64,000 bases of DNA from Loripinus fragilis. Taxonomy: Eukaryota; Mollusca; Bivalvia; Lucinida; Lucinidae. Both the position numbers and the translations under genes were made by a program. The notes under the pieces were generated by a model. It saw only the letters and a program-made list of their open reading frames with translations. It was not told the origin of the DNA and did not search any database. The stretch covers positions 96,348,368 to 96,412,367 of the forward strand of contig OZ026516.1 of assembly GCA_964019695.1 (NCBI GenBank), written 5' to 3'. Shown one piece after another: positions 26,988 to 45,286 of this stretch (its first letter is position 1; each line of letters starts with the position of its first letter).

Positions 26988-27068
26988 GGAGCGCAGTGCC
27001 TCAGTGGTAGAGTGCTTGACTCGAGACCGAGGGGCCGCGGATTCGATCATCACCGGCGTAACTGCGTT
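26988..27068 (+). mobile_element. tRNA-derived SINE, 5' part (split by the Polinton)
   Basis: The A-box-like AGTGCCTCAGTGGTAGAGTG (26995-27014) and the B-box-like GGATTCGATC (27039-27048) mark a tRNA-derived SINE head. The SINE body continues at 46498 on the far side of the Polinton; the last six bases here, TGCGTT, are duplicated there. Other copies are at 31412-31602 (minus) and 63090-63238. Confidence 0.8.
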
Positions 27069-27678
27069 AGTAGTAATGGGGGGCACTATGGGGTCATTTT
27101 TTTAAGCCTGAAAAGAACTTAGAATTTTTTCAGGCTAAAAAATGACCCCATAGATGCCGCCCCTGGTAGGCTTGAGTGACTAGCTGTGAATAACTTAGTT
27201 TATTTTAGGGGTATTTTGGTTGGGTCTATGATTGTGATTATGATAAGCTCCTGATCATATCCACTGGTTGGTTTGTGATTATGATAGTTTCCTGGGCTAC
27301 TGGGGAATAACTTAGTTTATTTTTGAGGACTATTCTGGTTTGGCCTGTGATTGTGATAGTTTCCTGGGCTATTGGGGAAATAACTTAGTCATTTTAAGGG
27401 GGATAAAGATTCTGCTGTGGTGATATATAAAATAACTTAGTTAATTTCAGCTTTGAAAATAACTTAGTAATTTTAAGGGTGATGAAGGCTCTTTTGTGGT
27501 GATATATAAAATAACTTAGTTAATTTCAGCTTTGAAGATAACTTAGTCATTTTAGGGGGTATAGTACGTGGTGATATATGGTGTGTGTGTCAAGGCTACT
27601 AAGTACCATGCGTCTTAAGAGTCTCTTGGTCAATCAAGACCTCAACTCCTAGAGGCATCACTCTGTAGCGTTAACTAG
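27069..27678 (+). repeat. Polinton left terminal inverted repeat (610 bp)
   Basis: It matches the right repeat from the tip to TGTAGCGTTAACTAG. It carries a 64-bp hairpin at 27088-27151 and seven copies of ATAACTTAG starting at 27190, 27307, 27380, 27432, 27459, 27511 and 27538. The extra length relative to the right repeat comes from internal duplication, including a 79-bp step between 27432 and 27511. Confidence 0.92.
27088..27151. repeat. Subterminal hairpin in left TIR
   Basis: ATGGGGTCATTTTTT and AAAAAATGACCCCAT bracket a second pairing of AGCCTGAAAA with TTTTTTCAGGCT. The same structure is at 46415-46478 in the right repeat, 19 bases from each tip. Confidence 0.85.
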
Positions 27679-27706
27679 GATATATTATTTAGCAAGTTTA
27701 GTGGTA

Positions 27707-27741
27707 TTCTTTCTAGGGAAGTGGTAGCCCTGAAAAGGGCT
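27707..27741 (-). terminator. Histone-type 3' end signal for the 27766-28161 gene
   Basis: On the minus strand AGCCCT-TTTC-AGGGCT (27741-27726) forms a six-bp stem with a four-base loop. It is followed by ACCAC, and eleven bases further by AGAAAGAA (27714-27707), which resembles a histone downstream element that pairs with U7 snRNA. The site lies 24 bases past the stop codon. There is no AATAAA in between. Confidence 0.8.
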
Positions 27742-27765
27742 GTTTGTTGATTGTCTAGGTGATTT

Positions 27766-28161
27766 TTAGCATTTCCTCTTAGTAATTCTAATTTTCTTAG
27801 TTGCTTTTCCAACTCCTATGTTTTGACTGGTGTCTTGATCATTTGTCGTAATGTCAAGTCTAATGGGAATCTGGATGGACGGCATGTCTAAAGGTTGCTG
27901 CTGTGCACGTTGCTGAGACAATTCATCTAAGTTCTTCACTCTAGATCTTAACTCATTTAGTTCTTTGAGTAAGACTTCAATGACTTGAGTCTTTGACTAT
28001 TGTTTTTGCAGCATCTGTTGAACAGGTTGAGGCATATACGCTGAGGGTGTTTGCGGCGTATAATACTGTTGTGTCGTATCGCTAGCAAATGTCTCATTCA
28101 CTGCTGATAGCAAAAGGTCAGGATTGTTGATCATATCATCTATTGTCAGTGATGGCTCCAT
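27766..28161 (-). pseudogene. Coiled-coil, Gln-rich Polinton left-arm protein, interrupted by an in-frame stop
   Basis: The frame is 131 codons with an in-frame TAG at codon 55 (27999-27997). The first part is acidic and Gln/Pro/Tyr-rich; after the stop, a predicted coiled coil (EVLLKELNELRSRVKNLDEL) is followed by a Gln-rich patch and a basic tail (KKIRITKRK). I do not recognise the family. Frame continuity across the stop, its own promoter and its own histone-like 3' end argue that this was a real gene. The ATG at 28161 lies downstream of a TATA box at 28203-28196. It is transcribed divergently from the 28417 gene. Confidence 0.7.
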
Positions 28162-28416
28162 GATTATGAATGGTGAAAGTGTAGTGTGCTCAAGCCTTTT
28201 ATACTTATCAAGCGGATTGACCTAGTTTAAAGTTCCCGCGTTTCAAGAAATCAAGTCAACTCTGATTGGGTGAAAATAAATGAACTGACCAATCAGTGTA
28301 TTGTTGCTCTCTCTAGCGTAGGAGTTCAATGTCGGTCAATCCCTTTGAAAACTATAAAAGCTCGTTTCAAATCTCAAATTCTTCATTCTGTTCTTGTGTT
28401 ACACAACAACAACAAA
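28162..28416. promoter_or_regulatory. Divergent promoter region for the two left-arm genes
   Basis: Plus strand: CCAAT at 28289, GTTGCTCTCTCTAGCGTAGG from 28303, GGTCAATCC at 28334-28342 and TATAAAAG at 28353-28360. Minus strand: CCAAT at 28269-28265, GGTCAATCC at 28222-28214 and TATAAAAG at 28203-28196. Spacing CCAAT to GGTCAATCC is 45 and 47 bases, and GGTCAATCC to TATA is 19 in both. The two promoters lie back to back. Confidence 0.8.
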
Positions 28417-28818
28417 ATGGCTTGCAATTTGGATTCGCGTTTGGAGGATTTGGAGGAGCAGGGCAAGGCTATGGTTGATGCTACTAGGAGGTTACTGGAG
28501 ACAGTGAATGCTGTGAAGGATACGGGTGAATTTCTATTACAAATGATTGAGAATCATCAAAAGATGTTGGAGATGAGTCGAAGGGTCGAAAATTTGATTA
28601 ATGATGCGAAAATGGAAGTGAAGGTGGAAACTATCAGTGACGAGGAGGAAGATTGGGGGGATAATTCTTCCCCCACACCTCAACCTTCTGAGGATTGGGA
28701 TGCGGAGGCAGACCATCCACCCTTCTACATCCCAGTGAAAAGAACTATAACTGTAGAGCAGTGGGCTGTGCGATGCCCTGCCTGTGGTGGCCGCCCCAGT
28801 AGATGCCCCTGCTCCTAA
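28417..28818 (+). CDS. Coiled-coil protein with acidic linker and Cys-rich tail (Polinton left arm)
   Basis: This intact frame encodes 133 residues. Residues 5-70 form a heptad-rich coiled coil (LEDLEEQGKAMVDATRRLLE, then RRVENLINDA). An acidic Ser/Pro linker follows (about 74-105), and the end is a compact Cys cluster CPACGGRPSRCPC that could bind zinc. I do not recognise the family. The ATG at 28417 follows a TATA box at 28353 by 57 bases, and the upstream frame lies in the promoter. The 3' end carries a canonical histone-type stem-loop at 28853. The layout recalls small multimeric DNA-binding or regulatory proteins, but that is inference. Confidence 0.8.
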   Translation: MACNLDSRLEDLEEQGKAMVDATRRLLETVNAVKDTGEFLLQMIENHQKMLEMSRRVENLINDAKMEVKVETISDEEEDWGDNSSPTPQPSEDWDAEADHPPFYIPVKRTITVEQWAVRCPACGGRPSRCPCS

Positions 28819-28852
28819 ATTTTTGCCTTTGTGGTAATATAACCACCAAACC

Positions 28853-28888
28853 GGCCCTTTTCAGGGCCACCCATTTCTTCAAGAAAGA
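28853..28888 (+). terminator. Histone mRNA-type 3' stem-loop plus downstream element
   Basis: GGCCCTTTTCAGGGCC (28853-28868) is a six-bp stem with TTTC loop, preceded by CAAACC and followed by ACCCA, matching the metazoan replication-dependent histone signal. Eleven bases on is CAAGAAAGA (28880-28888), identical to the classical sea-urchin histone downstream element. It lies 34 bases after the stop codon, and no AATAAA lies between. Confidence 0.9.
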
Positions 28889-29008
28889 ATAACTTAATAT
28901 GTTGCACTTAGTTTTGTATGTAAGGCTATGCCTAAGATATGTGTGATTGTAGTATTTCCTAACCATGTTCACAGTAATGGGGTGATTATGGCGTGATCTT
29001 TAAATGGA

Positions 29009-29080
29009 CCAATCAGATTAAAGTTGCTCTCTCTAGCGTAGGAGTAGAATATAGGTCAATCCACTTATCCAACTATATAA
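29009..29080 (+). promoter_or_regulatory. Promoter of the 29110 gene, paralogous to that of 28417
   Basis: CCAAT at 29009-29013, the block GTTGCTCTCTCTAGCGTAGG at 29023, GGTCAATCC at 29054-29062 and TATATAA at 29074-29080 occur at the same spacing as in the 28417 promoter (14, 45 and 65 bases from CCAAT, within one base). Sequence between the boxes differs, so the boxes look constrained. Confidence 0.85.
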
Positions 29081-29109
29081 CCCAACGTACTTTGTGCCTC
29101 TCTAAAAAA

Positions 29110-29289
29110 ATGAAGTTCTTTGAAAAATTCAGCTTGACTAAGTTGTGTGCTGCTTTGCAGCGAAAAGATTGGAAAGAGGTGGAGAGACAGCAAAATAAGT
29201 TGGGATTAGAGCAATTTCTTGCTCGTAGAGGGATTGGTTCCAGAAAACCTGTAGCCATTGTGCGACCTATTTTAAAATCTTCTAAGTAA
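29110..29289 (+). CDS. Small basic protein, 59 residues (Polinton left arm)
   Basis: This short intact frame encodes a Lys/Arg-rich protein with a likely helical start (MKFFEKFSLTKLCAALQRKD) and a basic C-terminal half ending IVRPILKSSK. I recognise no family. Support that it is real comes from its dedicated promoter (29009-29080), an ATG 30 bases past the TATA box, and a histone-type stem-loop 38 bases after the stop. The small basic character recalls a DNA-condensing or nucleic-acid-binding accessory protein; that is inference. Confidence 0.7.
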   Translation: MKFFEKFSLTKLCAALQRKDWKEVERQQNKLGLEQFLARRGIGSRKPVAIVRPILKSSK

Positions 29290-29327
29290 GAAATATTTTG
29301 TTACTTAGGAGACTTTAAAAAACAAAC

Positions 29328-29366
29328 AGTCCTTTTCAGGGCTACTCAATTAGTTTCGTTAAAGAA
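29328..29366 (+). terminator. Histone-type 3' stem-loop of the 29110 gene
   Basis: AGTCCTTTTCAGGGCT (29328-29343) folds as a six-bp stem with one G-U pair and a TTTC loop. It is preceded by ACAAAC and followed by ACTCA. A purine-rich AAAGAATAAC starts at 29361, matching the motif after the 28853 stem-loop. It is slightly less canonical than that one. Confidence 0.8.
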
Positions 29367-29477
29367 TAACCTCAAAATAAAAAACAAGCACAATTTCAAC
29401 ACCGTAATTTTATTTACAACTTACACTATCTTAAAAAACAGAACCGATCGTCACTATAAATCCTTAAAGTCCAGTCT

Positions 29478-30113
29478 TTATTGAATATGCACTATAGAGT
29501 CACTGTCTGGTTCATCACTAGAAATTGGTTTATCCCAGTTCTCCGCCACCATCTCTGTACAGGATCGAGGTGAGTGAGAGTCTGATTTACAAATGAAACA
29601 ATATGGCTTCTTCCCTGTCTTTGTACGGATGGCTGTCGAATGATTATCCAAACGTCTTCTCTTAGGACTGATATCAGATATATCTATTTCAGGAGCTTTT
29701 CGTTTCCTTGAAGGCTTCGCTGTAGATACTGAAGACTGTTGCTTCTCTGTAGATATAGAAGACTGTTGAGATGTAAAATCCTCTTCTCTCTTAGGACAAT
29801 TTGGAGCCCAATGATCTGCATGTCCACAGATAAAACATTGTCCATATGCAGGCTTCTTCTTATCGGTAGAGATCTGTTGTTCTCTTAATTTCTTAGCCTC
29901 TGGACAATCTCCAATCCAATGCCCCGTATCATGACAATGGTGACATTCTCCATAAGGTGGCCTCAACTTGTCTTGTTGTCTCAAACTATCTTCTAATGGT
30001 TGCATCAAAGCTTGTTCCTCTTGAGATAAAAGTTTCTTCAATGATACACAATGATAGTAGATGCTCTTCTTATCATAGACTTTAGCCATCCTTGGATCTC
30101 TACTGTTTGCCAT
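29478..30113 (-). CDS. Zinc-knuckle (three CCHC) nuclear-type protein
   Basis: This intact 211-residue frame has three CX2CX4HX4C knuckles: residues 57-70 (CHHCHDTGHWIGDC), 93-106 (CFICGHADHWAPNC) and 172-185 (CFICKSDSHSPRSC). Two basic clusters (SRKRK near 135, PKRRR near 150) look like nuclear localisation signals. The N-terminus is helical and basic. CCHC knuckles bind single-stranded nucleic acid, so a role in replication or RNA handling is reasonable but unproven. The start is the ATG at 30113, 53 bases after a TATA box (30174-30167). An AATAAA overlaps the stop and another lies at 29414-29409, so unlike its three left neighbours it uses ordinary polyadenylation. The Harbinger insertion begins just upstream of its TATA box. 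Confidence 0.85.
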   Translation of the reverse strand: MANSRDPRMAKVYDKKSIYYHCVSLKKLLSQEEQALMQPLEDSLRQQDKLRPPYGECHHCHDTGHWIGDCPEAKKLREQQISTDKKKPAYGQCFICGHADHWAPNCPKREEDFTSQQSSISTEKQQSSVSTAKPSRKRKAPEIDISDISPKRRRLDNHSTAIRTKTGKKPYCFICKSDSHSPRSCTEMVAENWDKPISSDEPDSDSIVHIQ

Positions 30114-30166
30114 CTTTACTCTTTGAAAGTCAGAAGTGAAATGATCCTCTCTCACTGGTGTCCAAC

Positions 30167-30174
30167 TATTTATA
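30167..30174 (-). promoter_or_regulatory. TATA box of the zinc-knuckle gene
   Basis: TATAAATA on the minus strand, 53 bases before the ATG at 30113. Six bases further upstream the sequence becomes Harbinger DNA, so any distal elements are now 3.9 kb away. Confidence 0.75.
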
Positions 30175-31411
30175 GTCCAGGACCCGGTTGTACGAAGCTC
30201 TATTAAATTTAATCATGGATTAAGCGTTAATCAATCATTTAAATCTTAACGATGGATTAACTAATTGATGTATTTTTAAATGTGTTGTACGAAGCCTCAT
30301 TAAACGGTTGATTAGTTAATTGACCTCTAATCGAGGGTTCGTAATTAATTTCAATAGAAAATCATAGAACCAGTCTCCCATAATTCAGCCATGTAAACAA
30401 AACGCCGCCATATTAGAAAAGAGAAATTCTCGAGTCAAAACTTACAAATCAACTTTAGGACGTAAAGAAAGAGGAGGAATCAAGCTGATCGGGATGGTCG
30501 ATTGTTACCCGGGGATCGTTACTCCTGTAACGTTCATTTCGCAATAAAAGGTTTATTTTCTATGAAACACAGTGAGAGTGTAAAGATATACAGATATCAC
30601 GGAAATGTAAGGCTACAACGCTCTATGATTGTTTTATTGACAGAGTCTGTCGAAATATCTGGTAAGCGTCGCCAATGACAATGTAAACAATGACGTCATT
30701 GTCTATGTCGCGCTCTTTTGTTGCTATTTTCATCACGCCAGTTTTATCTGACTCACTGGGGCACCTAGAACACTCCCCGGGGGGCGGGGGGGGGGGGGGG
30801 GGGTATCTGATATTTTCATATATACGTAGGCTCGGGTAAAATATTTTTTGGGTGCTTAAATTCGTGATATTTTTGGGGGTGAAAGTTAGATGCTGGGCGC
30901 GAGCCTACGCATGCAGAAAAAAATAGAGACCCCCCCCCCCCCCCCCCGGGAACACTGAGGCTTCGCAGAAATCAGGATTTGAAAAAGGCGAACCTGGCGA
31001 GATTAAAATCAAGAACATGAGCCCTTGGAGGCCCTGAACACCCAAAATAACGACACACTCCGGTCGAAAACGAAGACGACCAAATGACAGTTACCACCGA
31101 ATTCCGCATCCCTAACCAACCCCATGCCTCTCCTCAAAACTAGCTCTATGATATGAAAACGAAAAAAGAACGCAACCGTAACATCGGGGTTTCATTCGAA
31201 ATAGTTAAACAATAAGCCTAGAACAAAACGAACGTCAGATGCTACCCTTCAGTAAACAGTATTGGATCTATTCAGACGCAGCAAAAGTTGGAACTGAAAC
31301 GGCCCAAATCAGTTTTAAACTATAAAACAAAACGGAATACAAAACAAACACCCTGGAACATGATCAAACATGATCAGACTGACAAAATTCGGGACTGCGC
31401 CTGATTCACGG

Positions 31412-31602
31412 TGTTTGTTTTGTTTGTTTGATTTGATTCTTTACGTCCCAGTCAACAATCTTTCAGTTACATAGGGACGGGACTTCCTGGGCCGAACCAG
31501 TACTATGCTAGGATTAATGTGTCTTGCTCAATGACACGACGCAGTGACGCCGGTGAGGCTCGAAACCGTGGCCCTTTGGTCTCGAGTTTGCAGTGTTTGA
31601 AT
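31412..31602 (-). mobile_element. tRNA-derived SINE, near full length
   Basis: On the minus strand it reads from a degenerate tRNA head (CTCGAGACCAAAGGGCC, then TTTCGAGCC) through CACCGGCGTCACTGCG to a tail GGACGTAAAGAATCAAATCA followed by CAAA repeats. It is the same family as the copy split by the Polinton. Confidence 0.8.
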
Positions 31603-31881
31603 ACAAAATGCGGTCAAAGCAAATGCTTTGGAACCGGGCCTGGCAGGGTACGGGTCCAGACTTTTTGGCCAAACACACAGCTGCCACCCATTGGTATCCG
31701 AGCGAAAATAAGGGCATATACATGGGTGTCAGAAAAGTTTGGCCATTCAAATGCCAAAACTCAGAAAACGGGCCATTCATATACTTTCTTTATTAAAAAA
31801 GGGGGTTTATACCTGGTGGCGCTGAAAAGGGGGGGGGGGGGAATTGGGCGCATATCCGCACTATGTCTTACATAGGGAGTT

Positions 31882-31915
<34 letters not shown>

Positions 31916-31958
31916 AGAATGTCGTAAGGGGCGATCAAAAATTGTGCAAACAGTCGCC

Positions 31959-32187
31959 TTACAATGCCTCCTTAAAGTTAAGCAAGACTTATGTTAAGTA
32001 TTGATATTTCAACATGATATATTAAATGCTAAAAAATGCCTGGATCGATGTGGGTTATCATTGTGATCTTCAGAAAAAAAAAACTGTTTTGATTTTGATC
32101 AGTTTTAAACGTTACTTTTCGCATCCAGAAAAATCAATCTTAACGTAAGTCATCCTTAACTCTAAGGAGGCATTGTAATTCCGGGCC
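31959..32187. mobile_element. MITE related to the outer TIR element, left end truncated
   Basis: It starts at TTACAATGCCTCCTTAAAG and ends CTAAGGAGGCATTGTAATTC then CGGGCC, followed by CAG. It is a 230-bp internally deleted relative of the 24646-47417 element. Confidence 0.75.
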
Positions 32188-32624
32188 CAGATCTTGTAAT
32201 ATTGGCGCATAGAAGATCAAAGTAGGCGTAAGTGACTATACCGACGTGATATTTCTACAGATGTTAACTCAAAAATATCAGCATTTGATACATGTATATG
32301 GCAATCTTTTAATGTTTAGTCGGTATGTGAAATTACAGGACTTGTCACAGAAGTAAAGATGTCTCTTCCTGACATACAGCTGCATCTGAGCCGATCTTTC
32401 TGTTGGCATGCTGGTCTGAGTTACGGTACAAGAAACTCACCACAGATGAAGACAAGTAACATGAATTTAACATTGCTAACAACCGTTACAAACAGTAAGG
32501 CGACGAAGTGATGGGATGCGGAGGAGGGGACTAATTATTACTCCCTGCGCTTCTCGCATACCTGCAAACCCTCCCACGCGTTACTAACACATGTAACTTA
32601 ATCGACACCAAACTTGTTGGTTAC

Positions 32625-32940
32625 AAAATCATGCGCGGATCCAGGAATTTTTTTAGGGGGGGGGGGGGGTCCATGCCCGACGGCCAGAAATGGACAACGT
32701 ATTTTTTTTATTACTATTATTTTGTCCTCAACTTATTTTGTAGTTTATAGAGGGGGTCCAATGGTTTTATTACAGAGAAAACTATACTTTTCCAAGGATC
32801 CAGAAGGGGTCTAACATTTTCCAAGGGGGGGGGTGGTCCAACTTTTTCTTGGGGGGTCCTAATCGTAATATCTAAAGAAACCCATATAAAGTGATTTTCC
32901 AAGGGGGGGGGGTCCAGATCCCCTTTCCATGCAAAATTGC
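32625..32940. repeat. G-rich dispersed repeat, inverted relative of 25740-26040
   Basis: It shares CGCGGATCCAGGAAT, GGGTCCATGCCCGACGG and repeated GGGGGTCC blocks with the copy at 25740. Reading frames here are low-complexity and are not treated as genes. Confidence 0.6.
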
Positions 32941-33548
32941 AATTTAGGTCTGTTTTGAGCGGCGCCCATCCCCTTAGTTCAACACACAGAGCTTGGGGTA
33001 TTATACAAGATCAGGACGGAGATGCGGATTGCACTTTTATACAGAGGAGGCAGGTGCCCACATTCAAAGGGGCAAATGTCCATCCCCTCATATAAGTTAG
33101 ATGCGATTTTTTTTATTTAGGGGACAAACAAACCTTGCCATGAGGCATATGTTCGCATATTCGATGAAAAAAGTATTTTAGTTAGGGATTAAAGCAATGG
33201 GAAGGGTTTTAATCTGACATACATGTACATGGGCATTATGATTCACATATCAGAGTTATTGCTACTGGCTGCTTAACAGGAAATGACTCGTATAAGCTTT
33301 TAAACCAATGACATTATGAAGCACCCTCTCCTCCCCCCCCCCCCCCCCCCCTCTACACCGTCACTCATGACAGAATATTTCCGCCGGCGTAAAATGTGGC
33401 ATCTTCCAAAATATTGTCCAAATGGGAATAACATTTTTCATGAAAATTTTAAACGATATGTGTATACGTAGGATATGTGTATAAAGAAGTAACATAGCAG
33501 TAAAACAATGCTCTACTTTAAACTGATGTGCCACCCGCACTTTGCAAC

Positions 33549-33818
33549 TTAGCTGGGTAGTTCCATGACGTCACTGCGGTCACTAAGTAGAACGACTTTC
33601 GTTTTGGCAGAAGAAAGATGACATTTCACAATGAATGTTTGATGAAAAACAATGTTTTGGGGATTCACTCGGAGTTCCGCACTGATGGGATTTGATCTCT
33701 GTGTACTATGGCAGGTAGTTTCTTTGATCAATCTTAAGATGAAAAGTATGTTGGCCTTTGATAAGCGGTATCTCCGGCGCAATTCCACGTCGGTCATCTC
33801 TACATGTCTACATGCCAT
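33549..33818 (-). pseudogene. Harbinger (HARBI1-like) transposase N-terminal remnant
   Basis: About 60 residues match the start of HARBI1-type nucleases/transposases: DVELRRRYRLSKANILFI, then a helix, then RSNPISAELRV. The DDE catalytic part is missing and the frame drifts into unrelated residues after VNPQNIVF. Its presence supports classing the surrounding 3.9-kb element as Harbinger. Confidence 0.65.
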
Positions 33819-34097
33819 GGTTTGCTCTTTCTCTCACGTTTGTTTTCATTTCTTTGCCTTCCTGAATGGACAAACGCTATGTTTGCCGCCATTTTGTTTA
33901 TGGCTAATGACTGATTAAATCGTTTAATTCACCTCCTAGACGTCGATTAAATTTGATTGAGGAATCGGGGTTAAATCAAGGGTTTAATCCATGATTAAAA
34001 GATAATTGAGCTTCGTACAACGCGATTTAATAAGGCGCTAATTAATCGAGGTTTTAATCCATGATTAAAAGATAATTGAGCTTCGTACAACCGGGTC

Positions 34098-34409
34098 CAG
34101 AAATAGTTTTTCTCTTCTATGATTGTAGAGAAATTCGATCACACTAGGATTGTCAGCGACACATCTCCTCCAATTCTCAAATGTAATCAGTGTCTCTTTT
34201 TCCATCAAATAACTGATACTGATCCACCAAAGTTTCTTGAAATCTTCAAAAGTTTCAGGACTATTGAGTTTCTGTTGAATCTCTTCCAAAGTGATCTCAT
34301 CATGAGAAAACAAGATGTAAATGCAGAACAATAATCTTCTATAAGGTCTGAACTTCAATATCTTGGAAAGTGGAATTTCCAAATATTTCTTTTCTCTTGC
34401 TTCTTCCAT
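34098..34409 (-). pseudogene. Unrecognised Polinton gene, 3' end truncated by Harbinger
   Basis: The frame starts at ATG 34409, 44 bases past a TATA box (34460-34453), and runs in native sequence to 34098; beyond that the current frame reads Harbinger terminal sequence to a stop at 34065. The helical, acidic/aromatic protein contains TFEDFKKLWW and ENWRRCVADNPSVIEFL. The same spacing (TF--F---W, W---VA---SVI) occurs in the adjacent 34456-34842 gene, so the two are tandem paralogues. Removing the insert and one CAG copy in thought places the original stop only a few codons beyond the breakpoint, inside the zinc-knuckle TATA box. The function is unknown. Confidence 0.65.
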
Positions 34410-34452
34410 GATGTTGAACTCAGATATGATGATCAAAATGACTTGATCATTC

Positions 34453-34460
34453 TTTTTATA
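34453..34460 (-). promoter_or_regulatory. TATA box overlapping the upstream gene's stop codon
   Basis: TATAAAAA on the minus strand drives the 34409 gene. The TAA within it (34458-34456) is the stop codon of the preceding minus-strand gene. Confidence 0.75.
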
Positions 34461-34842
34461 TCGTGATCAAGCTATCTATGTTTGAAATGAGATCTTCATA
34501 ATCCATATCTTCTTCTTCTGAGACTTGTTGAATTTCTTTCAATACTGCTTCGATGTGAGAAATCACACTTTCGCTGTTTGCCACATAAGTTAACCAATCC
34601 ATATAGGTGACAGGAGTGTCATCAATGATTCTCAACATCTCTCGAGCATTACGTTTAGTCCAAAATCTGAATGTATCAAATGTCTCAAATCGGTTTAACC
34701 AGTTCTTGATTCCTGCTCTCGTTTTCAAAAACTCGGCACTGGATGGTTCTAATGATAAGATGTGGTCTAAAGTTATTTTGTAGACATCAAAATGTAAAAT
34801 TTGATCTAAGCACACGGGTAGACTTTTGGTGATCATATACAT
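34456..34842 (-). CDS. Unrecognised Polinton gene, paralogue of its 3' neighbour
   Basis: This intact frame encodes 128 residues and is predicted mostly helical. It contains TFDTFRFWTKRNAREML and MDWLTYVANSESVISHIEAV, paralogous to the truncated 34098-34409 protein, and an acidic C-terminal segment (EEEDMDYEDL). No family is recognised, and there are no Cys or catalytic motifs. The ATG at 34842 is two bases after the stop of the 34845-35489 gene, and the next Met (residue 3) is possible. No clear TATA box lies immediately upstream, so it may depend on the upstream gene's transcript. Confidence 0.7.
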   Translation of the reverse strand: MYMITKSLPVCLDQILHFDVYKITLDHILSLEPSSAEFLKTRAGIKNWLNRFETFDTFRFWTKRNAREMLRIIDDTPVTYMDWLTYVANSESVISHIEAVLKEIQQVSEEEDMDYEDLISNIDSLITI

Positions 34843-34844
34843 AT

Positions 34845-35489
34845 TCAGTTATTCAGCAGATAATCAGATTCACGACTTGGAAACTTCAAAATAATTTGTG
34901 GTTCTATCTGTCTTGGAGTATAATGTCCAATGGCAACGTTATATGAATCTGGTCTGTTTATATACCTAATCAGTTCACTGGTTATAAAGTGGTTAATCCC
35001 TGCAGCTGTTAAAGATGCCACAGATAAAGATACATCTTGAGTATTCCATGCAGACAATAACCATTGGACCTGATGCTTAGGAGTTTCTTCCTTTAGGTAA
35101 AAACATCCATAAAACTTATTACTGTCATAGATAATTCCATTCAAAAAATACTTGATATCTGTGTCACGAGTACGAATAGAGTAAAGTTTATCCACTGTCA
35201 AATTCTTCAGTCTTACAACCCAAACACGAGCTTTATCAATAATGTGAAATTTGGAGTAATGTATCTTGAGCATCTCCGTATGAAATCTTAAGCGCATCTC
35301 GCCAGGAAGATTTAGTAATTCGTCCATGCTTAGAAGTAGTTGGCCTAGTTCTTGGTGATAGATATCCTGAGATTTAGTCTCTAAAGCATTTGACAAGCGT
35401 CTCAACCTAACTTTAAACCATCCTTCTTGAATTTGCTTCCTGAATCCTAACCCTTTAGCTGAATTGTACATCGAATAAGTCCATATCAT
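34845..35489 (-). CDS. Unrecognised 214-residue Polinton protein
   Basis: This intact frame has a TATA box at 35604-35597, 107 bases before the ATG at 35489 (a second Met is at codon 7). The N-terminal third is helical and basic. From residue 82 the sequence ARVWVVRLKNLTVDKLY, then FYGCFYLKEE with KHQVQWLLSAW, has the strand-turn-strand rhythm of a rolling-circle Rep endonuclease N-domain, but the HUH histidines and the tyrosine motif are not there. That resemblance is weak and may be coincidental. The C-terminal part (INHFITSELIRYINRPDSYN, then PRQIEPQIIL) is not recognised. Confidence 0.6.
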   Translation of the reverse strand: MIWTYSMYNSAKGLGFRKQIQEGWFKVRLRRLSNALETKSQDIYHQELGQLLLSMDELLNLPGEMRLRFHTEMLKIHYSKFHIIDKARVWVVRLKNLTVDKLYSIRTRDTDIKYFLNGIIYDSNKFYGCFYLKEETPKHQVQWLLSAWNTQDVSLSVASLTAAGINHFITSELIRYINRPDSYNVAIGHYTPRQIEPQIILKFPSRESDYLLNN

Positions 35490-35604
35490 ATGTTGTATTT
35501 CTGTCGGTAGTTGAAATGCCGTAACTGATTTGCTCTCTTTATGTGTTACCTGCAGAGGAATTATTTCTAATGTGATAAGATAGCAATTGCTCTCAGCTTT
35601 TATA

Positions 35605-36443
35605 GGGTGAAAAATTTTTGAAAATCGGTCTAGGCAAACTCAAGTTATTGCGAAAATATGATTTTTACTTTTTAGAAATCCGGTTCTTGCTTTTTCATTA
35701 AATTATCTCCCTTGAATAAGAAAATTTTAACGGTAAAAAATATGTGAAATTTGTAATATCTCGGGTATCTTTTATCCGATTGACTTCAAATTTTTACCAT
35801 AAGATAGCTCTTATATTCAAGTTATCGATTTTACATACTTTAAAGGCATGATAACTATTATGAGATGGTGTATGCAAATTTGAGACACCATTTCAAACTT
35901 ATTCTGTGATAGGATAACTATATATATGAATCGCAAATAATTGCTTATTAAGTCAGTAGAGATATAGTTTGAACAAAAAATAACTGACCACTGGTACTCT
36001 ATACGTCCGCCTAGGCCCGTAGAGAAGCTTTGTGCTTCAGAAACTGTTGAATATGCATTTAAAAAGGTAGAGCAGCTTCGGCTGTTTAAGGGCGCCAGCC
36101 TTCGGGTTGGAGTGGCTCCGCCTCAAATTCTCTGGTCCATAGAGACATGCAGGAATTTGACTTGTATTTGAGACAGTTTCAATCGCCAGGGATTCCGAGG
36201 TTAGGATAGTACTGGGGGAGTAATGGTGCTGTTTATACAGTGCCTGATACTTCTTGCAAATTTTCAAAAATTGTAGTCTCGCCTGCACTTTAGACCTAGC
36301 TAAAAATATGTAGTCTCGCCTGCACTTTAGACCTAGTAAAAATAATATGTAGTCTCGCCTGACACAATGTGAAAAAAATCAGGTACTGAGTCTCTACTGT
36401 GAAATTTCAACTGATGATTGCAGAAAAATCTGGGTTTTTCCAG
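35605..36443. other. Non-coding spacer between divergent Polinton gene blocks
   Basis: This is 840 bases of AT-rich DNA with a short GC-rich patch (36062-36140) and a tandem repeat at 36274-36362. It separates the minus-strand gene block from the plus-strand polymerase gene and so holds upstream elements of both. No reading frame in it is convincing. An origin or regulatory function is possible but not shown. Confidence 0.5.
36274..36362. repeat. 37-39 bp tandem repeat, 2.3 copies
   Basis: The units start TAGTCTCGCCTGCACTTTAG then ACCTAG and end AAAATATG, at 36274, 36311 and 36350 (partial). They lie about 80 bases upstream of the polymerase TATA box. Confidence 0.85.
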
Positions 36444-36450
36444 TATAAAT
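36444..36450 (+). promoter_or_regulatory. TATA box of the polymerase gene
   Basis: TATAAAT lies 56 bases before the ATG at 36506. Confidence 0.7.
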
Positions 36451-36505
36451 TGAGCTCGCATTCCCATTGCAGCCTCATTTCACTACAGAACTTCGAACAG
36501 TCAAG

Positions 36506-39500
36506 ATGGTTAAACGACAGAGAGATAATACCCCACCCACTTCTGATGATGAAGAGCCTAAACCGAAATTGGTGGATTATTCAGACACAGAGAGCTCAGA
36601 TGATGAAGATAATATTAGACCACCACCAAGGAAAAGAAGAGCTAGGACTATGTAATCAGACGATGAAGATGATGAAGATTTGACTTCTTACTATACTATC
36701 AAGGCAGTCAATGAGAAGAAATCGAGATTATTTCGAGCTCAAGGGAAAGAATTTCAACTCAACATCAAGACTTTCCCTGACAATGTTTCGCCATATCAGT
36801 TCATATCAAGATTGTTTGATCGGCTGGTTGAAGACATCAAAGAAAGATGCCAGATGGAGTCCAATGACAAGATGCGGATGACTATTCTTCATCCTGGATT
36901 GAAACTGGGTGTCTTTGTGACATGGAGAGATGTCTCAGCTATGACTGGAGAAGCTGTGTTAGAAGAGATTATGAAAGTGCTCCAGTCCAATGAGAATTTT
37001 CGCATCAATGATGGACAGATGACTATTCAAGTCACAGTGGTGAGACTTCCAGTAGGCAGCGGACGTAAACCATTACATGCTGGTCTCTACTTTGAGTCAG
37101 AAAATATGAGTATTAACAAAAGAAGTATTGTACAGATCAACAACACCAAAGATGTGATGTGCATGGCGAGAGCTGTGGTGGTGGGGAAATGCAATGCAGA
37201 TAAGGAAGAATCAGAAACTTGGAAAAAGAATTGGGGATACATGAGACAATCAGATCGACCCATGCAGACCAGAGAAGCCATGAAGTTATTGGATCAAGCG
37301 AAGATTCCTCATACTAAGCCTTGTGGTATTGAGGAATACAAGAAGATCCAATCTGTACTTGCTCCCAAGTACTTGATTAAAGTCCATTCTCAGTATCCTA
37401 AAGATGGACTAATATTCCCACTTCAGTTCAAGAAGAAGCCTGAGACGAAGGTGATCCATATTTACTTTAATGGAGTAGATCACTATGATGCGATTACGAA
37501 GGTGACAGGATTTCTGGGCGCTAGCTATTACTGCAGATTGTGATGTTGGGTATAAACAAAGAGGAGACCATAGATGTGCTGATGGATGTGAAGATTGTTA
37601 TAGTGACATTCCTTGTATTCCTGGACAAAAGATACGTTGTATGGACTGTAAAAGAACTTTTCGTAGTAGGGACTGTTTTGCTAAGCATAAGGCAATGAAA
37701 TCTAAGCAACATAAATCTATTTGTCAACTTGTGTATAATTGTGGTAAATGTAATTTTAGGATTGTGGGTGCAAAGAAAAATCATGTATGTCCAGGACAGA
37801 GAAAATGTAGGAATTGTAAAGAAATTGTTGGACCCAATCATCAATGCTATATTCAAAGTTATGAATGTAAATCTGAGATGACTGAAAATGAAGGAGAAGA
37901 AGAGGTTTCTCAACCTAAGAAATCTCGTTTCATCTTCTTTGATTTCGAGTCAAATCAAGAAACTGGTACACATCAGGTGAATTTCTGTGTTGCTCATAAA
38001 GCTTGTGATGATTGCATGGATTTGCCCATAGATACATTTTGTCAAACTTGTTCAACACAAACAGGTCTGAGAGAATTTATCTTTGAAGGCATCGACACTT
38101 TACCACAATTTTGCAATTGGATTTTAGGAGATGAGAATAAAGGAGTGACATGTATTGCACATAATTTTGGAGGATATGATGGTCAGTTCATCTTACACTA
38201 TATCTTAGAATATGGTACAGTGAAACCTGAAGTGATCAGGAATGGAAATACTATACTTAGAATGAAAGTAGGACGTGTCACATTCCTTGATTCTTATCAG
38301 TTTTTGCATATGAGACTGGCTAATTTCCCAGATACATTTGGCTTGACAGAGATGAAGAAAGGTTACTTTCCTCATCTTGCAAATAGACTGGCAAACCAAA
38401 AGTATGTGGGACCTTACTTTCCTGTGGACATGTACAATCCTGGTCAGATGTCTGTCAAGGATCGTGAGGTATTTTTAGCTTGGCATAAAGGGAAAATTGA
38501 GAGTGGTGCTATATTTGACTTCAGACAGGAGATGGAAGAATACTGTCGTAGTGATGTTGATATTCTAAGACGAGGATGTGCTTGTTTCAGACGAGAATTG
38601 ATCAACATTAGTGGACTCGATCCTTTGTCTGAAGCTTGCACTATCGCTCAAGCTTGTTCAAAAGTTTGGAGAAAGAATCATATGCCTGAAAACAGTATTG
38701 CCATTATCCCACCTGAAGGCTATCCTAATCAAAAGAACTACTCTATCAAAGCTGTAAGATGGATTCAAAGTGAAGCTAAGACACGTGGTATTGAGATCAA
38801 ACATGCATTGAATGGTGGTGAACAAAGAATCAATGGACATTATGTGGATGGCTACCATGAAGACTCTCGAACTGTATTTGAATTCTATGGATGTTATTGG
38901 CATGGATGTCCTACTCATTTTCCAGACAGAAACAGAGTTCAACATCATCAGTGTTTGAGCATGCATCAGTTGTATATTTTGACTATTGGCAAGAGTGAAG
39001 AATTACGACGAGCTGGATATCAGGTGGTGGAACTTTGGGAATGTGATTATGACAAGAGATACAAGGAAGATCCAGACTTTAGATCTTTGGTGGACTCAGA
39101 ATTTACAAACTTAGACCCTTTGAGACCAAGAGATGCTTTATTTGGTGGAAGAACTAACTCGACCAAACTCTATCAGGAAATTAATGAATCCTCTAGAGAA
39201 GAAATCAAGTACATCGATGTGTGTTCACTCTACCCTTATATTTGCAAGTACGGAATGTTTCCACTTGGACATCCTACCATCTATTCTCAAGAGAATATTG
39301 ATAAAGACAACATCAGACAGTACTGTGGATTGATCAAGTGTAAAGTGTTACCACCCACCAATTTGTACCATCCTGTACTTCCTCAGAAATGCAGTCAGAA
39401 ATTGATGTTTCCATTGTGTAGAAGTTGTGCTGAAAAGACAGATCCTCATATGAGATGTACTCATTTACGAGAAGAAGATAGAAGTTTTACAGGGACCTGG

Positions 39501-40502
39501 GTCACTATCGAATTGTTTGCTGCATTGGACAGAGGGTACAAGTTATTGGATGTGTATGAAGTCTGGCATTTCTCAGAGACTACTCAGTATGACAGAGAAT
39601 CTGGAGAAGAAGGGATCTTTGCTGGCTATATCAATACATTTCTGAGAATCAAGCAAGAATCAAGTGGCTATCCTGATTGGTGCAAGACTGAGCAAGATAA
39701 GATCAAGTTCAAGCAAGATTACTTTGAAGCTGAAGGAATCAGATTGGAGAATGTTGAGAAGAATAAAGGAATGAGAGCTATTGCCAAGATCATGTTAAAC
39801 AGTCTCTGGGGAAAATTGGCACAGCGAGATAATATGACCAAGACAGAATATTTTTCAGAACCTGCCAAGTTCTTTGATCTGGTGACGAATCCAAACAAGA
39901 TTGTCAAGAATGTGGACATTTGCAGAGAAAATCTTCTACTGGTCAACTGGGAGGATACAGAACCCAGTGTGGAGCCACATGCTTGCAGTAATGTGATTGT
40001 TGCAGCATTTGTCACTGCTCAAGCCAGATTGAAGTTGTATGAACCCTTGGAAAAGCTGAATGAACGTGTACTCTACTTTGATACAGACTCTATCATTTAT
40101 CATCACAAACCCCATTTATGGAATCCTACTATTGTCAACAACAGACTTGGAGAATGGACAGATGAAGTGCCCAATGCTAGAATTGTGAAATTTGTAGGCA
40201 TGGGACCAAAGAACTATGGCTATGAATTTGTGGACAAGGATGGAAAGAGGAAATCAACTTGCAAAGTGAAAGGACTCACTTTAGATTACAATACATCTCA
40301 AGTCATTCACTTTAATCGAATGCTAAACTTGGTGAAGGAAGATACAAAAGACTTCAGAGAAACTGTCAACTACCATAGGATCAGAAAACACAAAGACAAG
40401 ACTGTGGCCACTGAATTGCAATCCAAGACGTATCGGTTCACTTATACTAAGCGTGTCATTGTTGGAGATGGATATACTGTTCCTTATGGGTATTTGGCAT
40501 AG
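36506..40502 (+). pseudogene. Protein-primed family B DNA polymerase (Polinton/adintovirus type), broken by one stop and one frameshift
   Basis: Replicative polymerase of the element. An acidic/basic N-terminal stretch from ATG 36506 meets an in-frame TAA at 36653; the same frame then continues to a TGA at 37541. A shift of reading frame near 37530-37545, inside a Cys-rich segment, leads into the main 953-codon frame (ATG 37641, open from about 37542). In that frame: zinc-like CxxC clusters (residues 34-69), Exo I FFDFES (D101/E103), Exo II HNFGGYD (174-180), Exo III YCRSDVD (301-307), an inserted nuclease-like YGCYWHGCP block (416-424), Pol A DVCSLYP (526-532), Pol B KIMLNSLWG (716-724) and Pol C YFDTDS (812-817). 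All catalytic residues are kept, so the damage looks recent. A sequencing or assembly error at the shift is an alternative. Confidence 0.92.
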
Positions 40503-40681
40503 AGTAGTTCTGATGATCATGTATTATTTCTGATAAACATGTATTGAACTGTGTCTGATAAACATGTACAGTTTCTTTGATGTATTAAACTGTTTTTTAA
40601 TTATGTATTAAACTGTTGGTTCATGTTTATTAAAATTTGAGTATAAATAAAGTTGTCTTTGTTATTTTTTCACAGTTAGAC
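40503..40681 (+). promoter_or_regulatory. Spacer with TATA box of the ATPase gene
   Basis: It holds three AACATGTA/TATTAAACTG iterations after the polymerase stop and TATAAATA at 40642-40649, 40 bases before the ATPase ATG. The same bases include an AATAAA that could serve polymerase mRNA 3' processing. Confidence 0.7.
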
Positions 40682-41380
40682 ATGGCCCTTTCTACACACC
40701 AGTTGGACTCAAATCAAGATATTGGAAGTTTGTTTTTTAAACACCCTTCTAATATTTTTATTTCTGATCCAAGTGGATCGGGTAAAACTGAATTTGTTAA
40801 AAAGATGATTGAGTTTAAAGAATATTTATTTGATATTTTACCCCAACGTATTGTTTGGTGTTACAAGGAATGGCAAAAATCTTATAATATCTTACAAGAA
40901 CGTGAAGGGTCAAATATCAAATTTATTCAAGGAATTCCCGATGATGAAGATGAGATTGTCACCGATCCCAGTGCAACGCACTTGGTGATTTTTGGTGACA
41001 TGTTAGGAGATAAAGATGAAGAAAAAATTAAGTTATGGTTTACAAGAAAAGGACTTCATAGAAACGCAAGTGTGGTGTACATCACACAAAATTTATTTCA
41101 ACAAAGTAAATCTTCTCGCACCATCAGTTTGAATGCTCATTATTTAGTTTTATTTCAAAGTCCAAGAGATAAGATGCAAATTAAAGTATTGGCCAATCAA
41201 CTTCAAGCTCCCCATATGATTCATGCGTTTAACGATGCCACATCTATACCTCACGGATACTTATTGGTCGATTTGAAACCAAATACACCTGATTATCTCA
41301 GATTCAGAACACAAATTTTTCAAAACTGGTTTACAAAATCAGATCAACAAGGACCTGTTGTCTATTTTCCAGGAGTATAA
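40682..41380 (+). CDS. FtsK/HerA-type genome-packaging ATPase
   Basis: This intact frame of 232 residues would pump element DNA into a procapsid. The Walker A region is DPSGSGKT at residues 29-36, with K35 and T36 present but Asp replacing the usual first Gly. The Walker B strand is LVIFGDML (101-108) with D106 and a Gly where a second acidic residue is usual. The VVYITQNLF block (132-139) is the sensor-like strand typical of Polinton ATPases. The start is ATG 40682, 40 bases after TATA; the longer frame upstream lacks an ATG. Its stop codon (41378-41380) is embedded in the TATA box of the next gene. The Walker substitutions may lower activity, or be lineage-specific. Confidence 0.88.
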   Translation: MALSTHQLDSNQDIGSLFFKHPSNIFISDPSGSGKTEFVKKMIEFKEYLFDILPQRIVWCYKEWQKSYNILQEREGSNIKFIQGIPDDEDEIVTDPSATHLVIFGDMLGDKDEEKIKLWFTRKGLHRNASVVYITQNLFQQSKSSRTISLNAHYLVLFQSPRDKMQIKVLANQLQAPHMIHAFNDATSIPHGYLLVDLKPNTPDYLRFRTQIFQNWFTKSDQQGPVVYFPGV

Positions 41381-41383
41381 AAA
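41376..41383 (+). promoter_or_regulatory. TATA box overlapping the ATPase stop codon
   Basis: TATAAAAA at 41376-41383 contains the ATPase TAA. It lies 44 bases before the next ATG (41420). Confidence 0.78.
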
Positions 41384-41419
41384 GGTGTGTTTGAATTTAA
41401 ATCCATCATTTGTGTCAAA

Positions 41420-42073
41420 ATGGCTCAACGAACATCAGCTAATCTGATACGTGCTCTGTATAATTTAAGCAGAGAACATGATAGTCATAAAAGAAAATCA
41501 CTCTTAAATGCTGGTTTTATTGAAATGATCAAATGGTTTTCTTTGGCAGCTCGAAAAATTGTTCAGGGTAAGATGAAATTACCTAAACAAACTCAAAAAT
41601 TTATGGATAGACATCAGGATGATGTTCGAAAATTAGCAAGTGCAATTGTTGACCCTGAAGTCAAACGCAGTATCATTTTAAAACCTGGAGGTGGTGGATT
41701 CTTTGGTGGTGTGATCATTCGAAGTCTGATTCGATGGGATGGAAATAAGTTGATGAGAAAATTTAACAAGAAAACTAAACCTAAACAACCTAAGAAAAAA
41801 TCAGTGAAAAAACCTAGAAAACAGAAAAAAAGAAAGGTTGATGATCGTTTTGTAACAAAACGTAAAAGTAAAAGTCCTGCTTCATGGCAAAATTTAGGTC
41901 TTGATTCTCCAAACACAAATGCAAGACGATCGTCCATAAATTTAGCAAGATTTACTCCTTTGAGAGCACAAGATTTGTTAAAAAGACATGGATTTGGTGC
42001 TACCATGCACATGTTAAATCCAAACAAATATCCATCGCCACCTCATTCTGAACGTCGAAGACTTCATTTTTAA
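41420..42073 (+). CDS. Lys-rich core-like protein with Gly-rich hydrophobic segment
   Basis: This intact frame encodes 217 residues. The N-terminal 85 residues are helical. A PGGGGFFGGVIIRSLIRW segment follows, then a long Lys/Arg tract (KKTKPKQPKKKSVKKPRKQK), and a Ser/Pro-rich tail. The pattern of a Gly-rich hydrophobic patch and strongly basic tract fits virion core or minor capsid proteins of adenovirus-like viruses. In Polintons such proteins sit between ATPase and integrase as here. DNA condensation is an inference. The ATG is 44 bases after its TATA box. The next gene's TATA box follows its stop by 6 bases. Confidence 0.75.
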   Translation: MAQRTSANLIRALYNLSREHDSHKRKSLLNAGFIEMIKWFSLAARKIVQGKMKLPKQTQKFMDRHQDDVRKLASAIVDPEVKRSIILKPGGGGFFGGVIIRSLIRWDGNKLMRKFNKKTKPKQPKKKSVKKPRKQKKRKVDDRFVTKRKSKSPASWQNLGLDSPNTNARRSSINLARFTPLRAQDLLKRHGFGATMHMLNPNKYPSPPHSERRRLHF

Positions 42074-42079
42074 AAAAAC

Positions 42080-42087
42080 TATAAAAG
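42080..42087 (+). promoter_or_regulatory. TATA box of the pX-like gene
   Basis: TATAAAAG lies 43 bases before ATG 42123, close to the TATA-ATG distance of the two preceding genes (40 and 44). Confidence 0.75.
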
Positions 42088-42122
42088 GACTGTACATCAA
42101 AGTGTTGAACACACTCATAATC

Positions 42123-42527
42123 ATGGCTGTAACAACAACACGTCGTAGAAAATTGCAAAATAAAATGAGAAAAAAGTCTCTGGTTAAAACTTATGGTACA
42201 TTTTTAGAAGGATTGACTCATTTATCCAATAAATGTCGTAAGAAAATGATTCAAGAATCTCCAAAAGAAGTCATTGATTGTGTAGGGGAATGTTGCATCA
42301 ATCTTATAAAAGGCAATGTACGTCTGACAAATGCTCAAAGGAATCAGTTACGAGCTAGAAAGCAACATATACGTTTACTGAGTTCTAAGCAAGTTCCACT
42401 TGACACAAAAAAGAAAATTATTAATCAGAAAGGTGGAGCTTTGTTAGGATTATTGTTAAAACCATTAATTGCTCCTATCATAGGTTCTGTCTTGGGTTCT
42501 GTCTTGGGTGAAATTATCAAAAAATAA
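42123..42527 (+). CDS. pX-like small basic protein with C-terminal hydrophobic helix
   Basis: This intact frame encodes 134 residues. It has a basic N-terminus (TTTRRRKLQNKMRKK), a conserved central block CCINLIKGNVRLTNAQRNQL with LRARKQHIRLL, and a GG-led hydrophobic C-terminus (GGALLGLLLKPLIAPIIGSV) rich in small residues. The end resembles the GG-cleaved hydrophobic segment of adenovirus pX (mu) core proteins, which the adenain protease processes. The central block is a familiar uncharacterised Polinton signature. A membrane-active or core role is inferred. Its stop is followed five bases later by the start of the integrase-encoding gene. Confidence 0.75.
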   Translation: MAVTTTRRRKLQNKMRKKSLVKTYGTFLEGLTHLSNKCRKKMIQESPKEVIDCVGECCINLIKGNVRLTNAQRNQLRARKQHIRLLSSKQVPLDTKKKIINQKGGALLGLLLKPLIAPIIGSVLGSVLGEIIKK

Positions 42528-42532
42528 AAAAT

Positions 42533-44209: not shown

Positions 44210-44235
44210 ATTTGCTCTTTCTCTACACGTTGTAA

Positions 44236-44694
44236 CTTCCAAAACGAGTTTTTATTGGCTTAGTATTAAATGAGGCATTTAATGGGACTTTGGAAACTAA
44301 TCCTTTCTTTTTCCAACATTTCAACCTAAGTAAAATGGATGTCACTTGTGATGGACATAGTGTCTATGGAAAACCATTTGAACCTAGATTTGGAAATGAT
44401 CAGTATCTCAGGTCTTTCCTATCTGTTTACCAAGCATTGGCAAGTCAGAATCAGGTCCAAAATTGCAACATTGATTATGAAGATTACAAAGGAGGTTACT
44501 GCTTTTGGGGATATGATTTGACACCAGATCAAGCAGCCGATCAGTCTCATTTGCACCCTATAAAAACTGGGAACCTCAGATTGGAGCTTCAGTTTGCAAC
44601 ATCACTTGACAAGACGATCAATGTGCTTGTGTATGCAGAGTTTGACAACCTGATAGAAATCAACGGACTTAGAGAAGTTACCACAGATTACTAA
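44236..44694 (+). pseudogene. C-terminal remnant of a jelly-roll capsid protein
   Basis: The frame is open from 44236 (after a TAA at 44233) to 44694, about 152 codons. It contains PKRVFIGLV, then AFNGT, then NPFFFQHFNL and a late block GNLRLELQFATSL followed by VLVYAEFDNLIEI. These match the C-terminal part of a family common in animal genomes (annotated F54H12.2-like) that belongs to Polinton/adintovirus capsids. The complete family member is several hundred residues; the N-terminal jelly roll is missing. It abuts the integrase end within about 25 bases, so an internal deletion probably removed the rest. Whether it is the major or the minor capsid protein I cannot decide. Confidence 0.7.
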
Positions 44695-44696
44695 AG

Positions 44697-45284
44697 ATGA
44701 ATGCAGGATACTTCATTGAACAGGACTTGATGTACCAAACAGATGCATACAGTGCAACAGTCCAGCCATCAGATGAGAAGAGTACCTTACAGAAAGAAGT
44801 AGAAGACAATGAGGATATTGATTGTCTTATGAAAACTCTTCTAAAACAAGCCATATTGACTTGTCTAAAGATGGCAGTTGGAGACTGTGCGAAGCATGAA
44901 TGTCATGGATGCAAAATGAACCACCCAAGTCAGAAATACCACGATATTTGTCTATGGACTTCTCCAAGAGAATGGATTGAAGATTATGGATGTCATGATC
45001 CAGCCTTAGAGGGCCTAAACATCTACGATGTGATGAAAGACTTTGACGATAGAATCTGGAACTATCTGTATGGCGACAGTTTGCGACACCCTATGGACTT
45101 TACAACAGGGATCAATCACCTGACGCCAGAAGAAAATCAAGAAGCCTATAAAAACTGGCAGTACTTCAAGAAAAATCAAAGTGACTTAACAGAACAGTGG
45201 AAGACGTACTGGGCCAAGAAACTCATAGAATCCTATGAAGAAAAGGAAACTGAGGAAAACGAGAAGAGCCCAGAAACAGAATAA
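44697..45284 (+). CDS. Polinton Cys/His-cluster protein of unknown function
   Basis: This intact frame encodes 195 residues. The centre has a metal-binding-like cluster HECHGCKMNHPSQKYHDICL (about residues 67-86), a motif I associate with Polinton-type proteins. Both ends are acidic, and the C-terminus is helical and Glu-rich. The ATG at 44697 is two bases past the capsid stop, and its own stop is two bases before the protease ATG. It has no TATA box, so it probably shares a transcript with its neighbours. Its function is unknown. Confidence 0.75.
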   Translation: MNAGYFIEQDLMYQTDAYSATVQPSDEKSTLQKEVEDNEDIDCLMKTLLKQAILTCLKMAVGDCAKHECHGCKMNHPSQKYHDICLWTSPREWIEDYGCHDPALEGLNIYDVMKDFDDRIWNYLYGDSLRHPMDFTTGINHLTPEENQEAYKNWQYFKKNQSDLTEQWKTYWAKKLIESYEEKETEENEKSPETE

Positions 45285-45286
45285 AA

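Follow-up and report, generated by a model that had tools for sequence, protein, structure and literature searches.

Histone-type promoters and 3′ ends on three genes of a Polinton in the lucinid clam Loripinus fragilis

Three left-end genes and their signals

The 64,000-nucleotide (nt) stretch of the lucinid clam Loripinus fragilis analyzed here (contig OZ026516.1, positions 96,348,368 to 96,412,367; hereafter the window) contains one Polinton, a decayed copy at 27069-46497, and three genes at the left end of this mobile element carry histone-type signals both upstream and downstream of their coding frames (Table 1). Genes 2 and 3 each consist of one open frame with no intron; gene 1, which is oriented divergently from gene 2, is broken by one stop in the window copy, an in-frame TAG at 27997-27999. 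Structure prediction for the gene 2 protein gave one 73-residue helix followed by a low-confidence acidic part, which is probably disordered, and a Cys-rich end. Its family comprises 161 proteins (90% clusters) at E≤1, one of them representing 776 sequences; gene 2 had no match in PHROGs, and none was confirmed for its alignment in prokaryotic genome contigs. Descent of genes 1-3 from histones was rejected, since in 20 comparisons with the host H1, H2A, H2B, H3 and H4 their proteins showed no significant histone match, the lowest shuffle p being 0.062 (gene 2 with H3).

Table 1. Positions of the left-end genes, their signals and other parts of the Polinton in the window.
Feature	Position	Strand	Basis
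Gene 1, small protein with basic C-terminus	27766-28161	-	Translation; relatives in 65/68 fetched loci
Gene 2, 133 aa, predicted long helix, acidic stretch, C-terminal CPACGG..CPC	28417-28818	+	
Gene 3, 59-aa basic protein	29110-29289	+	
Gene 1 promoter, H2A-like: CCAATCAG, GCGGGAA (E2F-like), GGTCAATCC, TATAAAAG	28196-28269	-	
Gene 2 promoter, H2B-like: CCAATCAG, TTGCTCTCTCTAGCG-AGGAG block, GGTCAATCC, TATAAAAG	28289-28360	+	
Gene 3 promoter, H2B-like: CCAATCAG, TTGCTCTCTCTAGCG-AGGAG block, GGTCAATCC, TATATA	29009-29079	+	
Gene 1 histone-type stem-loop AGCCCTTTTCAGGGCT	27726-27741	-	RF00032, 25.2 bits, below gathering
Gene 2 histone stem-loop GGCCCTTTTCAGGGCC, then ACCCA	28853-28868	+	RF00032, 38.8 bits, above gathering
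Gene 3 histone-type stem-loop AGTCCTTTTCAGGGCT, one U-G pair	29328-29343	+	RF00032, 17.3 bits, below gathering
Gene 1 downstream element GAAAGAATA	27705-27713	-	Motif scan
Gene 2 downstream element CAAGAAAGAATA	28880-28891	+	Motif scan; best match host H2B downstream region
Gene 3 downstream element AAAGAATA	29361-29368	+	Motif scan
Zinc-knuckle-like gene (contrast gene), without stem-loop	29478-30113	-	Zinc knuckle below Pfam cut-off
PolB	37641-40502	+	Pfam DNA_pol_B_2, E=1.9e-44; frame broken upstream in window copy
Target site duplication TGCGTT, 6 bp	left 27063-27068, right 46498-46503		Sequence at both ends
Left terminal inverted repeat region, starts AG	27069-27678	+	Inverted repeat arms I1, I3, I5, I8, I16
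Right terminal inverted repeat region, final bases CT	46046-46497	-	Inverted repeat arms and sequence

Hairpins with TTTC loops lie 24, 34 and 38 nt past the stop codons of genes 1, 2 and 3 (stop 27768-27766, stop end 28818 and 29289, respectively); reading the sequence placed them where, and on the strands on which, an earlier note had reported them, within the 24-38 bases it gave. The note had described all three as perfect six-bp stems, which is correct for genes 1 and 2 but not for the third stem with its U-G pair. Of the three hairpins, the 28853 copy alone exceeds the gathering threshold (34 bits) of the Rfam histone 3′ stem-loop model RF00032. With 4227 families scanned together, the RF00032 E-values were 2.7e-8 for gene 2, 0.0032 for gene 1 and 2.9 for gene 3; these hairpins were the only RF00032 matches at E≤10 within 26000-48000, and none was found in the flanks 1-26000 and 48001-64000 (42 kb scanned). 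Folding z-scores for the three hairpins were -2.42, -2.76 and -0.20.

The downstream motif AAAGAATA lies 13, 15 and 17 nt past the hairpins of genes 1, 2 and 3, and these account for three of its six occurrences on both strands of the window, while CTTTTCAGGGC occurs three times, solely at the 3′ signals of these genes. The shorter string CTTTTCAGG is found five times, with two copies in the terminal repeats (100 shuffles: mean 0.68, maximum 3). The earlier note had equated CAAGAAAGA with the sea-urchin histone downstream element, which is probably right; a literature search gave no confirming paper. The gene 2 downstream element runs on into AATAACTTA, which is similar to the repeated AATAACTTAGT-type units of the terminal repeats (27378-27535 and 46139-46287).

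Bare 6-bp hairpins with a TTTC loop are not rare: the window has 7, where shuffles gave a mean of 3.05 and a maximum of 9, and the hairpins alone were therefore rejected as proof. It is the sequence-specific core, together with its position and the downstream motif, that carries the signal. As a decoy control, the stem-loop core pattern was searched in 257 Gb of prokaryotic contigs; all of the 29 matching loci lacked the histone motifs sought, and none of the 19 scanned with Rfam reached gathering. The stem-loop patterns had 0 matches in IMG/VR. Regarding poly(A) signals, gene 1 has none in 250 nt and gene 2 has ATTAAA at 198 nt, and in the zinc-knuckle-like gene AATAAA lies 63 nt past the stop.

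At the 5′ side, CCAATCAG, GGTCAATCC and a TATA box are common to genes 1-3, and the three copies of GGTCAATCC in the window all lie in these promoters. The gene 2 promoter shares 48 of 54 aligned bases with that of host H2B (score 69; maximum of 300 shuffles 28) and the gene 3 promoter 47 of 54 (score 61; shuffle maximum 26), whereas the gene 1 promoter matched host H2A (30/37 identical, score 39; shuffle maximum 28). Cross-matches above shuffles were seen between gene 2 and H2A (30 vs 24) and between gene 1 and H2B (27 vs 26) because the GGTCAATCC part is shared. The host H2B promoter resembles those of genes 2 and 3 in having CCAATCAG, a TTGCTCTCTCTAGCG-AGGAG block, GGTCAATCC and TATA, with motif-to-ATG distances in gene 2 and host H2B of 128/131, 111/111, 83/83 and 64/63, and the H2B gene of a second host cluster (L102) has the same promoter block. 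Upstream of 7 other genes of the element, no histone promoter match was found (scores 13 to 22, within shuffles).

Host histone genes and processing factors

A tandem cluster in the host genome (L101; C14:100-6300) holds H2A, H1, H3, H4, H2B and H2A in the same direction. The RF00032 scores of its stem-loops were 35.9 bits for H2B, 34.0 for H3, 32.4 for H1, 30.5 and 17.4 for the two H2A genes and 22.7 for H4, all of them below that of gene 2 of the element. The element stem-loop is closer to the Rfam model because the loops of the core histones in the cluster are TTTT or a shortened form, whereas those of the element, like that of host H1, are TTTC. In the five cluster genes measured, the stem-loop lies 25-31 nt past the stop and no AATAAA or ATTAAA occurs within 250 nt; most of the clustered histone stem-loops have a purine-rich element downstream. 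The host H2B and H2A genes thus resemble genes 1-3 in their stem-loop soon past the stop, and H2B has AAAGAATAAC downstream. For the region past the gene 2 stem-loop, the best match was the H2B downstream region, and 0 of 500 shuffles were as good; the region past the gene 3 stem-loop also matched H2B best, weakly (p=0.024, uncorrected). The element genes differ from the host histone genes in that their proteins are without histone similarity and in that they sit in a mobile element.

Two stretches of the RNA-binding domain of SLBP were found in the host genome, which are likely exons. Outside the clusters, four dispersed H2B genes (L103, L104, L105 and L107, on contigs C16, C16, C352 and C34) share a near-identical upstream flank that differs from the promoter of clustered H2B, and in a pattern search over 110 nt none of the four had a stem-loop; they possibly represent an amplified unit carrying H2B. 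A diverged H2B copy (L106; C13:9940250-9941250) keeps the promoter block, has an altered TATA region and no stem-loop by pattern, and is perhaps a pseudogene.

Conservation of the signals and their possible role

A search of the whole genome (1.99 Gb) with RF00032 gave 457,952 first-look candidates, of which 75 were scored, all above gathering. Seventy of the 75 were placed, in the window and, for the other 69, in 68 fetched loci; all are Polinton copies, and they score higher than the stem-loops of the host histone cluster. Gene 2 was present in 68 of these loci, gene 3 in 67 and gene 1 in 65, and no histone motif was found in the 28 loci checked. The earlier note had regarded absence of the motif from related elements as evidence against its proposal, and here the motif was kept: the exact 16-mer stem-loop of the window was found at 57 of 63 readable sites for gene 1 and at 59 of 67 for gene 3. 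AAAGAA stands at the offset seen in the window in 61/63 sites for gene 1 (13 nt), 67/68 for gene 2 and 64/67 for gene 3 (17 nt). Across the 68 loci, the H2B block occurs exactly twice in 55 and GGTCAATCC exactly three times in 55. The E2F-like site (28233, in the spacer between genes 1 and 2) is present in 61/68 loci and would fit replication timing, but we regard it as only a lead because the promoters of the host histone cluster are without it.

The conservation alignment contained 28 rows, namely the window and 27 loci (one of 28 was dropped for length), in two subfamilies of 13 and 15 rows divided at 94% identity to the window. Between the groups, the segments from stem-loop to downstream element showed majority differences at 0/37, 0/39 and 0/41 positions. 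The between-group pairwise divergence of the gene 1 stem-loop was 1.0%, compared to 12.3% for the adjoining spacer; among 670 non-coding windows of 16 nt, 17% and 24% were as conserved as the stems of gene 1 and gene 3, respectively. Protein-database tails were compared for gene 2 relatives, 121 in all (120 of the 161 as listed, plus P0241, found by its tail). In five of them (P0019, P0065, P0110, P0113 and P0241) the sequence continues across the stem-loop site, which is retained with few changes. At least four (P0013, P0022, P0107 and P0116) are, by eye, rearranged before the site, and the remaining ones stop short; conservation of the tails did not significantly exceed that of the coding part (p 0.07 to 0.87).

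Among known eukaryotic mRNAs, only those of replication-dependent histones are described as lacking a poly(A) tail; SLBP binds their stem-loop, the U7 small nuclear ribonucleoprotein (snRNP) pairs with the downstream element, the mouse core of which is AAAGAG, and cleavage by CPSF73 takes place between the two (PMC7026596). The stem-loop and the downstream element are given as hallmarks of replication-dependent histones in a study of Hydractinia, where expression is confined to S phase (PMC5011920). In the clam Polinton, the match to histone genes is found at both gene ends and is limited to genes 1-3, it has been maintained across dozens of copies and from one subfamily to the other, and the host has an SLBP gene. 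With promoters and 3′ signals both of histone type, the element has the two ends of a histone-like expression unit, and we therefore consider it quite likely that genes 1-3 are expressed as replication-dependent, non-polyadenylated mRNAs via the host SLBP and U7 snRNP. Host histone-gene transcription factors would read the element promoters in S phase, U7 snRNP would pair with the AAAGAAUA element, and the transcript would be cut a few nt past the stem-loop. SLBP would then escort the message to translation, the message would be lost once DNA synthesis stops, and the left-end proteins would be made while the host replication machinery and nucleotides are available. Such a coupling to replication through the histone pathway had been proposed in the earlier note, and the host SLBP, the host histone stem-loops and the matching histone promoters support it; the promoters, which its author had not noticed, constitute independent support.

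Several observations weigh against this interpretation. Host U7 was not found by Rfam (65 of 602,440 candidates scored), and a U7 pattern gave 210 matches compared to 137 for a reversed control, with none convincing at six places inspected from the first 100. The stem-loops of genes 1 and 3 score below the Rfam gathering threshold and their first pair is A-U, and the region downstream of gene 1 had no match to H2A (p=0.676), its best match being H1 (p=0.030, uncorrected). The exact stem-loop of gene 2 in 68/68 loci is circular because the copies were selected by that signal, and conservation of the gene 3 stem does not exceed that of the adjoining spacer (1.3% and 1.4%), so that gene 3 alone offers no contrast. 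Covariation was rejected as proof, since the single compensatory pair change across the three stems is within the shuffle range (169/500). Finally, AATAAA lies 86 nt past the gene 3 stop, because of which gene 3 may also be polyadenylated; a human H2A gene is reported to be capable of both 3′-end types, stem-loop and polyadenylated (PMC9756948).

The signals could instead be captured histone-gene flanks that were copied a single time together with the promoters and persist as inert, unused remnants. The decay of the window copy (the TAG in gene 1, the broken PolB and integrase-like frames) would agree with this, as would the resemblance of gene 2 to H2B at both ends, which capture predicts. 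However, the subfamilies have 0/78 majority differences in the signals of genes 1 and 3 compared to 50/611 at other non-coding positions (p=0.0019) and 69/323 at third codon positions (p=6.5e-8), and the coding frames are also constrained, with codon positions 1 and 2 varying less than position 3, which makes this explanation unlikely. It is quite improbable, too, that the hairpins are generic ends serving RNA stability, termination or poly(A)-coupled signaling without SLBP or U7. Palindromic 3′ ends are known from other large DNA viruses and the AATAAA of gene 3 would suit such a role, but nearly all readable copies keep the TTTC loop, the sequence of the stem, the AC flank and AAAGAA at fixed offsets, beyond any generic need, bare TTTC hairpins are at chance level, and the histone promoter match would be left unexplained. 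That the palindromes serve the element as DNA sites for binding or replication is scarcely credible despite the short inverted repeats near the element end and related CTTTTCAGG strings in the terminal repeats, since the loop and downstream motif always stand in mRNA sense past a stop, including that of the opposite-strand gene 1, and a similar composite terminates the host histone genes.

Returning to replication-dependent expression, an ancestral element likely captured H2B and H2A regulatory ends. On balance, we favor the broader view that an animal mobile element took over complete histone expression units, H2A-like for gene 1 and H2B-like for genes 2 and 3, each with a histone stem-loop, and would use them to make tail-less, replication-coupled messages. 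A search of the openly accessible literature gave no report of SLBP or of histone promoters in Polintons. A paper that covers adintoviruses mentions, in the part consulted, histone-like proteins in other viruses and not these RNA signals (PMC11071296). The statement of the earlier note that it knew of no such description in Polintons or adintoviruses calls for one qualification, a 2025 survey that counts six Rfam hits to the histone 3′ untranslated region stem-loop in genomes of protist Polinton-like viruses (PLVs) and virophages (PMC12220804). That likeness is a bare count, with none in cryptophyte PLVs, and the section concerned does not discuss it or give a gene position, downstream element or promoter.

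If our interpretation is correct, these would be the first known non-histone genes made as a set of tail-less, replication-coupled mRNAs, and the rule on tail-less mRNAs would be widened by non-histone genes of a mobile element with both histone ends. A DNA element would time its expression to host replication through borrowed signals alone, and would constitute a natural experiment, in an invertebrate, on which promoter and 3′ signals are sufficient for S-phase coupling. A family of at least many dozens of copies could furthermore tax the host SLBP and U7.

Remaining parts of the element and its surroundings

The element shares with Polinton/Maverick elements and adintoviruses the AG-starting terminal inverted repeats, the 6-bp target duplication and PolB, the protein-primed type B DNA polymerase. 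It also has weak matches to an A32-like packaging ATPase (Pox_A32, 18.9 bits, below the Pfam cut-off of 22.8) and an adenovirus-type protease (Peptidase_C5, 17.5 bits, below the cut-off of 21.3). It differs from them in its histone-type 3′ ends and promoters, which are undescribed there in the literature searched, apart from the survey count given above.

Both PolB and the integrase-like gene are split in the window copy; 36854-37543 is likely the other piece of PolB. The broken frames 42680-43615 and 43844-44209 presumably resemble a retroviral-type integrase, and neither had a Pfam integrase match. PolB has 1581 relatives, and among the 120 matches listed the closest, of 1216 aa, shows 96% identity, and many of the named ones are animal. 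Among these same matches, the closest named relative (72%) is on a contig filed under a lucinid-clam symbiont, while bivalve relatives show 43-46% identity in oysters and 48% in Mercenaria over two thirds of the query. We take the symbiont named on that contig to be a dweller in lucinid clams. Relatives sought in IMG/VR by PolB, the PolB alignment, the gene 2 alignment and the ATPase yielded only one distant PolB match (L001), and among phages PolB had 6 weak matches.

A nested decayed insert at 30187-34091 has inverted ends GTTGTACGAAGC and a short minus-strand frame (33549-33818), which we assume to resemble a Harbinger-type transposase and for which no Pfam transposase match was obtained. 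The Polinton insertion site (26990-27068 / 46498-46620) is, by eye, a seemingly tRNA-derived repeat similar to a short interspersed nuclear element, and a stretch of the right half of this repeat recurs inverted at 31452-31520. Frames with an alcohol-dehydrogenase N-terminal domain (2123-2626 and 53864-54457) flank the Polinton, ~51 kb apart, and are perhaps a host tandem duplication.

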